Virus record (IMG/VR): IMGVR_UViG_3300009417_000016
Coordinates: 1-30,095 of that record
Reading direction: 5' to 3' (one strand)
Source: a virus
Length of the DNA stretch: 30,095 nucleotides
Below the pieces are notes generated by a model. That model was not told the DNA's origin, made no database searches, and saw only the letters and a program-made list of their open reading frames with translations. Positions 3,441-12,130 of the stretch are shown here, in pieces. The position numbers were made by a program, and so were the translations under genes. The first letter of the stretch is position 1, and each line of letters begins with the position of its first letter.

Positions 3441-4313
3441 ATGCAAACAACTACAAGAACGCAAATCATCCAAGCCCTAAAGGCAAACCGAAACAACTAC
3501 ACCAGTGATGCTAAACATGCACGTGTACTCGGAATTAACACCGCGCAATATTCCAGGATAAAGTCTGGCGAATTAGAGCGCGTTATTTCAGATGCCAAAT
3601 GGATCACGCTGGCGCGTAAATTAGACGTGCAACTCAGAGACACCGTTAAATGGGTTACTGTAGAGACTGAAACCTTTGAGTATATCACCGCACAATTAGA
3701 AGCCTGCCAAAGCGATTCTATATCGCGCATATTTTGCGATCGCTCAGGTATCGGTAAAACACACACGGCAAAAAATTATGTCAGCAGAAATGCAAACGCT
3801 GTTTACATCGATTGCTCGCAAGTAAAATCCAAACAAAAGCTCATCCGCAAAATTGCACGCGAGTTTGGAGTGGAATATACAGGCCGTTACGCAGAAGTGT
3901 ACGAGGATCTCGTATTCTACTTAAACGGACTCGAAAATCCACTGATCATCTTAGACGAAGCTGGCGATGTAGATTATGCAGCATTCTTAGAACTCAAAGC
4001 CATCTGGAATGCTACCGAATACAAATGCGGTTGGTACATGATGGGAGCTGATGGTCTAAAGCAAAAATTAACCAGACAGCGCGATCTTAAAAAGGTAGGA
4101 TATACAGAGATACTAGACCGATACGGCAACGATTACAAAAAAGTATCACCAGAAGGCAAAGAAGCCGTTAAGGAATTCGATCTACAACAAGTCGCACAAA
4201 TATCTAAAGCCAATAACTCTAAGATATCAGCCCTTAAAATGTACGGTAAAACATTAGGATCACTCAGAAAAGTAAGAACCGAAATTCAAAAGCAGCAATT
4301 ACTAGCAAGCTAA
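3441..4313 (+). CDS. MuB-like AAA+ ATPase, transposition target protein
   Basis: A 290-residue protein directly after the transposase; in Mu the B ATPase selects target DNA and activates the transposase. Residues 20-65 form an XRE-like helix-turn-helix (ARVLGINTAQYSRIKSGE), as in MuB N-termini. The ATPase domain has a Walker A loop SGIGKT at 102-107, where the usual first glycine is replaced (CDRSGIGKT), and a Walker B segment PLIILDEAGD at 167-176. A basic C-terminal region (KQKLTRQRDLKK and later) suits DNA contact. The stop codon abuts the next start (4314), so the two ATPases are probably translated together. Confidence 0.9.
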   Translation: MQTTTRTQIIQALKANRNNYTSDAKHARVLGINTAQYSRIKSGELERVISDAKWITLARKLDVQLRDTVKWVTVETETFEYITAQLEACQSDSISRIFCDRSGIGKTHTAKNYVSRNANAVYIDCSQVKSKQKLIRKIAREFGVEYTGRYAEVYEDLVFYLNGLENPLIILDEAGDVDYAAFLELKAIWNATEYKCGWYMMGADGLKQKLTRQRDLKKVGYTEILDRYGNDYKKVSPEGKEAVKEFDLQQVAQISKANNSKISALKMYGKTLGSLRKVRTEIQKQQLLAS

Positions 4314-11704: not shown

Positions 11705-11722
11705 TTTTTCATATATTTGCTA

Positions 11723-11860
11723 TTGCAAACACGAAACAAGAGCAATCTTGATTCATTTTATTAACGATAGCGAAAGCCACACTAAGGTTCACCCTAAGGA
11801 AACTCGGGTAATCCGATTCTTGTAATCGTGTTTGCAAATCTAAAGTGTGGCTTTATTTTT
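11723..11860 (+). ncRNA. Candidate structured RNA with H-type pseudoknot and terminator
   Basis: Two perfect long pairings cross one another: TTGCAAACACGA (11723-11734) with TCGTGTTTGCAA (11826-11837), and AAAGCCACACT (11773-11783) with AGTGTGGCTTT (11844-11854). The second is followed by ATTTTTGTT, so it can serve as an intrinsic terminator. Smaller hairpins fill the loops: CAAGA-GCAA-TCTTG (11737-11750) and CGATT-CTTGT-AATCG (11814-11828, overlapping the first pairing by 2 nt). A promoter -7 element TATATTTG lies at 11712-11719, placing the start near 11725, though I see no good TTG upstream. No protein frame fits. Function unknown; alternatives are a regulatory leader of the next gene or a DNA regulatory array. 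Confidence 0.5.
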
Positions 11861-11869
11861 GTTCTAAAC

Positions 11870-11900
11870 TTGCAAATATTTGCAATATCACTTAGTTTTG
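11870..11900 (+). promoter_or_regulatory. Promoter with perfect 16-bp dyad for the small HTH gene
   Basis: TTG at 11870-11872, 20-nt spacer and TAGTTTTG at 11893-11900 fit the Bacteroidota consensus. The TTG is the first three bases of the perfect palindrome TTGCAAATATTTGCAA (11870-11885). ATG begins 5 nt after the -7 element, so the transcript should start at or near the start codon (leaderless). Confidence 0.65.
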
Positions 11901-11905
11901 TTACC

Positions 11906-12130
11906 ATGGCACTCACACGCGATGAACGTTTAAAACTTCGTGACGAAAAGGTTAGAGAACTCTTCGATAAAATCTCAACCAAAAATCCCAAATGGCGATT
12001 CGATGCTATTATAGAAGATATAGAGCTCATCGTATATTTAGCTCCACGTACCATAGAAGGCATTTTAAGAGGCGAAGGTCGCTATGCTGTAGATCCTAAA
12101 CCAGAGGAATCACCTAACTTATTTTCTTAA
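11906..12130 (+). CDS. Small HTH-like protein, candidate middle/late activator
   Basis: A 74-residue protein starting at ATG 11906; an open stretch further upstream lies in the RNA/promoter region and is not coding-like. DERLKLRDEKVRELFDKIST is a basic amphipathic helix, and NPKWRFDAIIEDIELIVYLAPRTIEGILRGEG reads as helix-turn-helix with APRTIEGIL as recognition helix. The pattern is like Bacteroidota phage DNA-binding proteins. Its place, alone between early and late regions, is that of Mor/C in Mu, so a transcription activator is my inference; autoregulation through the dyad at 11870-11885 is possible. Its 3' end overlaps the convergent gpF-like gene by 12 nt. Confidence 0.6.
   Translation: MALTRDERLKLRDEKVRELFDKISTKNPKWRFDAIIEDIELIVYLAPRTIEGILRGEGRYAVDPKPEESPNLFS

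Follow-up and report, generated by a model that had tools for sequence, protein, structure and literature searches.

What is the structured element that lies between the early and the late genes of a Mu-like phage, and on which messages might it act? The stretch analysed here (the window), an IMG/VR virus record, is 30,095 bases long, and its genes include a transposase, a MuB-like AAA protein, a Mu F-like protein and a Mu-type portal; the MuB name we infer from the AAA domain and the place of the gene after the transposase. The element follows the last of the rightward early genes, and its c4 domain is followed after 51 nt by a small gene that converges with the leftward late genes. Of 45 related loci recovered by a portal search, most have the small gene in the same position; in most of these, judged by eye, a plain terminator-like hairpin alone precedes it.

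Parts, fold and family of the element

A sequence-only reading had described two long perfect pairings that cross, and both are present: helix 1 joins 11723–11734 (TTGCAAACACGA) to 11826–11837 (TCGTGTTTGCAA), and helix 2 joins 11773–11783 (AAAGCCACACT) to 11844–11854 (AGTGTGGCTTT). The two small hairpins that it had placed in the loops (11737–11750 and 11814–11828), the TATATTTG motif and the T-run were recovered as well, and its proposal of a distinct structured RNA, with a promoter-like element of its own and ending in a T-run, is supported (Table 1). On folding, the RNA strand of this region gives −40.1 kcal/mol (z = −4.27), a value equalled by none of 200 shuffles. Perfect inverted repeats of at least 12 within 130 nt number five in the window against 0.57 expected under an order-1 Markov null, so the record has other long repeats of this kind, but a crossing pair is notable. 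We regard the comparative evidence as decisive, namely that the predicted helices recur with changed letters in relatives.

Table 1. Features of the candidate c4 unit, the neighbouring small gene and a candidate target within the window
Feature	Position	Strand	Detail
Candidate target, start of the MuB-like AAA gene, ATGCAAACAACTACAAGAA	3441–3459	+	TGCAAACA at 3442–3449 and TACAAGAA at 3452–3459
Promoter −7-like element, TATATTTG	11712–11719	+	Bacteroidota-type TAnnTTTG
a1/b1, putative built-in copy of the antisense target	11723–11741	+	b1, 11723–11734, TTGCAAACACGA; a1, 11736–11741, ACAAGA
Linker, GAGCAATC...ATTTTATTAACGATA	11740–11769	+	Alike in close relatives (alignment A3, 6 sequences)
c4 domain	11773–11854	+	Match to Rfam c4-2 (RF02944); folds
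c4 closing stem P1 (helix 2 of the sequence-only reading)	11773–11783/11844–11854	+	
Antisense element	11814–11837	+	a′ hairpin CGATT-CTTGT-AATCG, then b′ strand TCGTGTTTGCAA
T-run after P1, possible intrinsic terminator, TTTATTTTTGTT	11852–11863	+	
Putative small-gene promoter, TTG and TAGTTTTG	11870 (TTG); 11893–11900	+	5 nt before the ATG; spacing 23 nt
Small gene	11906–12130	+	HTH according to the sequence-only reading, no Pfam match; place conserved in relatives

The consensus TAnnTTTG, which we take to be the −7 type of Bacteroidota, is the basis for reading TATATTTG as a promoter element from which 11712–11863 may be transcribed. TATnTTTG or a near form precedes the other nine units of the comparison set out below, and also the G029 unit; no clear TTG −33 element was found ahead of the window RNA, where the −33 is weak. 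The predicted transcript would carry in its upstream half the segment a1/b1; c4-a1b1 is the name of the target copy in c4 RNAs. Its downstream half would fold into a closed multi-stem domain in which P1 encloses an inner hairpin with GGAAAC and then the antisense hairpin, displaying an antisense loop and strand (a′ and b′). At the 3′ end, the T-run was not called by a terminator scan, owing to the loop limit of 8 in that scan, and the stem ahead of it has a 60-nt loop, which is unusual for an intrinsic terminator.

At gathering thresholds, Rfam returned zero matches in the window. In E-value mode, c4-2 (RF02944, clan CL00128) matched 11775–11854 at E = 2.9e-6, its 36.3 bits falling short of the gathering score (41). 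The alignment is full-length (model positions 1–79) with a few non-standard pairs marked, and the closing stem, inner GGAAAC hairpin, antisense hairpin and CUAAA of the consensus are present. As in c4 RNAs of the P1/P7 kind, the window has an antisense loop and strand complementary to an upstream target copy in the same predicted transcript. RNAs of that kind are further marked by RNase P trimming at the 5′ end to about 77 nt, by repression of target translation and by superinfection immunity. We assign the element with high confidence, from its sequence, as a c4-type antisense RNA of the P1/P7 kind related to c4-2. Other searches gave little: no known riboswitch, tRNA or tmRNA in the window was convincing, and DNA similarity to phage and plasmid records was limited to a weak Ruminococcus phage match (E 0.7), with none to plasmids. 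A DNA search of 395 Flavobacteriales genomes with the window RNA gave 54 nominal matches at E ≤ 0.05, and the ten located matches that were inspected were all chance-like, mostly coding sequence. TTTGCAA as a genome-wide operator was also set aside (13 sites against 14.6 expected).

Antisense and target copy in related units

A c4-2 search of 46 related records found two, G022 (L024; 45.1 bits, above the gathering score) and G010 (L050; 26.5 bits), and both c4 units directly precede a KilA-N gene. KilA-N occurs in 5 of 47 records, the window not among them, and inspection by eye placed a c4-like unit upstream of it in all five KilA-N records of the portal-related set; the sole weak Bro-N record of that set (G029) likewise has a c4-like unit before the gene, as does L087, a KilA-N relative of L024. 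A pattern drawn from the window a1/b1 found 30 stretches, of which only L162 and L170 were c4 units: both are close homologues that share the specificity, and in each the next gene is a Bro-N gene starting ATGCAAACAG. In L181, too, a c4-like unit lies before a Bro-N gene. Several c4-like units beside antirepressors fall under Rfam's threshold, with L162 at 34.3, L170 at 36.3 and L085 at 35.1 bits in addition to L050; L083, L082, L087 and L181, all before antirepressor genes, have no c4-2 match up to E 0.5 in E-value mode, and G029, the record that holds the c4-like unit L231, has none at E 0.1. A model built from six units (R1) recovers its own members and beyond them only L181 (0.022), L082/L019 (0.12), L031 (0.16) and L183 (0.35), L031 overlapping the G029 c4 unit on the opposite strand. 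Given so few matches beyond its members, R1 is too narrow for counting orphans.

From each of ten units we cut two segments mechanically, a1/b1 (the 34 nt that follow the −7 element) and the c4 part, and computed all pairwise duplexes; most comparison units had been recognised visually ahead of antirepressor genes, in part through their complementarity, and the tests are therefore not blind. Cognate a1/b1:c4 duplexes had a mean energy of −28.7 (n = 16, range −36.1 to −25.0) and non-cognate duplexes one of −13.9 (n = 84, range −20.8 to −6.1). In all ten rows a1/b1 paired best with the cognate c4, and of the 40,320 permutations possible for the eight specificity classes only the identity reached the observed sum. 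For each unit, between 0 and 2 of 1000 shuffled a1/b1 segments did as well as the real one; in the window itself, where a1/b1 pairs with 11826–11837 and 11818–11823, the duplex has −26.2 kcal/mol and 1 of 1000 shuffles was equally good. The G029 unit, added later, gives a self duplex of −28.0, but its c4 also pairs at up to −24.8 with the window group, with which it has the b element in common.

The check that homologues might fail to keep the base pairing thus came out in favour of the structure: pairing is kept across the ten related units, and the letters change almost wholly between the eight specificity classes. What the crossing helices represent is another matter. Helix 1 is the a1/b1 antisense pairing, its 12 bp extended by six more (11736–11741 with 11818–11823), and a target copy upstream in the transcript would account for the crossing. 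The helices described in the sequence-only reading stand and could pair in cis, but the folded pseudoknot as their main reading gives way to the covariation; complementarity between antisense and target copy better explains the crossing helix.

Turning to the genes that follow these units, we compared each antirepressor start (−18 to +15) with the antisense of its own unit and scored the longest uninterrupted match. All nine starts have 6–10 contiguous bases complementary to their own c4, and non-cognate combinations have a mean of 5.2 bases and at most 7; only the identity among 40,320 permutations does equally well. The contiguous-match measure alone separates cognate from non-cognate pairs; duplex energies do not consistently rank the own c4 first for an antirepressor start. 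In relatives, then, the predicted RNA adjoins a KilA-N or Bro-N antirepressor and its antisense matches bases of the translation start. In P1, b′ partly covers the ribosome-binding site, a′ gives specificity and RNase P processes C4 (PMC5320573), and full repression of ant needs C4 (PMC8198154). By analogy with the P1/P7 model, antirepressor translation would be blocked in these relatives and lysogeny favoured.

Candidate targets and competing explanations

A downstream antirepressor of the same operon whose start is the target is present in nine relatives and in G029 and is absent from the window. Searches with the KilA-N and Bro-N profiles, the only ones used for antirepressors, found neither in the window record; the Pfam scan took in part of the window proteins, and since the record may be a fragment this absence holds for its 30,095 bases. 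Antirepressor-linked units, which must be read through, mostly have no T-run after c4 (L087 has TTTTT), unlike the window. Given that no antirepressor gene is present and that a T-run comes directly after the c4 stem, the best reading of the window unit is an orphan, a predicted trans-acting c4 RNA that, if functional, would act on messages with the same site.

Genes with such a site occur in other phages. The window antisense is complementary to the antirepressor starts of L162 and L170 as well as to a1/b1, and the window c4 pairs with these starts at −20.2 and −21.0, respectively. L162 has the identical antisense segment, which in that phage overlies the Bro-N antirepressor's start codon, and the portal proteins of the two phages are only 24% identical; identical antisenses in phages so distant suggest that the module has moved or is strongly conserved. 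The likely targets are the antirepressor messages of L162-like phages, and the best-supported among them, those of phages of the same specificity (L162 and L170), would make the element an immunity RNA. Taken whole, an orphan c4-type antisense RNA acting in trans on messages with the same site is probably the best explanation of the locus; its role in immunity is more tentative, and we place slightly less than even confidence in it.

A more speculative target lies in the window itself, at the start of the MuB-like gene, and raises the prospect of a retargeted c4 that controls translation of this transposition gene. ATGCAAACAACTACAAGAA matches both antisense halves (8 + 8 bases) and is the sole bipartite match of at least 14 in the window outside the c4 unit. 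Among 2655 other ORF starts, two reach the bipartite score of 16, one of which the pattern had fetched, and TGCAAAC over the ATG with a perfect ACAAGA within 16 nt occurs at 0 of 2723; the true L162 and L170 targets carry five of the six bases of the ACAAGA template, and the match is absent from the 26 other B-like starts compared. However, the criterion and template were framed after the match was seen. The duplex energy is not significant (best-of-60 null 0.52 for the whole c4 and 0.39 for the antisense only), 69 of 300 shuffled antisenses do equally well, a match of at least 8 bases over the ATG is found at 16 of 2110 AT-rich starts, and the antirepressor-linked phages with an inspected B start have no match of this type. 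With energy tests negative and seed tests positive, we consider control of the MuB-like gene doubtful. Immunity in trans and control of MuB are not mutually exclusive, and a re-aimed c4 with an added terminator could both control its own MuB-like start and silence the antirepressors of rival phages; this combination seems improbable, and if true, one RNA would link transposition control with immunity.

Equally improbable in our estimation is a decaying relic, kept after loss of the antirepressor only as a terminator of the early operon. The plain terminator-like hairpin at the same place in most relatives and the loss of the antirepressor from the window record would fit such decay, but promoter, a1/b1 and antisense are all intact, and the antisense equals that of L162 while stem positions have changed with pairing partly kept. 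The L162 identity could also be due to recent acquisition.

The sequence-only reading had also offered the RNA as a regulator of late switching, and a cis-acting attenuator or leader of the HTH gene directly downstream would be of this kind. The region before the HTH ATG pairs with c4 at −22.6, and TTGCAAATATTTGCAA (11870–11885) holds 7–8 bases of the antisense complement. The start of the gene, however, has only 5 contiguous antisense bases, and the match at 11870 coincides with the −33 element of a promoter that belongs to the gene itself and recurs in relatives; the antisense match of TTGCAAA there is more simply promoter, because the −33/−7 layout is conserved. In 29 of the 38 distinct relatives, mostly phages without c4, TAnnTTTG lies 2–10 nt ahead of the HTH start codon, and in 21 of those 29 a TTG stands 21–27 nt further upstream, most often 23. 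With a conserved promoter of its own and a 5-base start match, the HTH gene was set aside as a cis target, regulation of late switching is unsupported, and we consider a cis role very unlikely, although readthrough could still place the RNA in the leader of the HTH message. The small-gene message is probably leaderless, and the small gene before the late genes looks so in many Bacteroidota Mu-like phages (29 of 38). TTGCAAATATTTGCAA is also a perfect 16-nt palindrome over the −33 region of the small gene and could be an operator.

Weakest, and to our minds hardly credible, is a self-contained pseudoknotted regulatory RNA of a new family: its two helices cross and both could form in cis, but the c4-2 match is significant and the crossing pairing covaries exactly like a target copy.

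Chromosomal c4-2 units and known systems

Chromosomal c4-2 RNAs were found at 47 places in 15 of the 395 Flavobacteriales genomes, up to six per genome; in the stretches of loci L051–L080 they lie at positions 1501 to about 1580. Most of the 30 inspected loci consist of a promoter, a TCCTAAA... repeat, c4-2, a second repeat and an ORF of about 77 aa with no Pfam match. The antisense tracks the repeats (cognate means −13.4 for a1 and −15.2 for a2 versus −10.1 and −11.0), the cognate being the best partner in 14 of 30 units for a1 and 11 of 30 for a2, with many specificities common to several units. A 72-aa ORF in a phage antirepressor operon (L162:3667–3885) is homologous to the chromosomal 77-aa ORF (34%, E 3e-14). 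This homology suggests that the chromosomal c4-2 units may be of phage origin, or the reverse.

In the literature searched, mostly outside subscription journals, we found no description of RNAs of the c4 type from Mu-like phages of Bacteroidota, and the c4-2 family was named only in a list of Rfam structure updates (Rfam 15 paper). For this family, the present units provide a role hypothesis, namely many-specificity, target-copy antisense control of KilA-N and Bro-N antirepressors in Bacteroidota phages, to which the window adds an orphan with an antisense identical to that of a distant phage. They also raise a question: do temperate phages keep antisense immunity RNAs after the guarded gene is lost, silencing competitors?

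The closest family, c4-2 (RF02944), shares with the window the domain with GGAAAC and CUAAA in a full-length match, and its chromosomal units share the order promoter, target copy and c4. They differ in that the target follows c4 in those units, whereas the window scores 36.3 bits against 41 and has no target gene after c4. The C4 RNA of P1/P7 (RF01695) is alike in its a′/b′ antisense, the upstream target copy in the transcript and, in relatives of the window, an antirepressor target; what is said of P1 follows two papers (PMC8198154, PMC5320573), and c4-a1b1 appears as a table entry in a third (PMC2864571). The window differs from P1/P7 in its Bacteroidota-type promoter, its Mu-like phage setting, the lack of a downstream antirepressor and a T-run in place of readthrough. 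STnc6030 of prophage BTP1 is a likeness by function, a prophage antisense RNA that mediates superinfection exclusion, and it is not described there as related to c4 (PMC7067206). For the Group 1 C4-like sRNAs of Acinetobacter baumannii, the authors suggest possible action on incoming phages or host messages (PMC5320573). As described there, Group 1 occupies multi-copy host loci with RNA-seq support, whereas the window holds a single phage copy, whose probable original target, unlike in Group 1, is identified in relatives.
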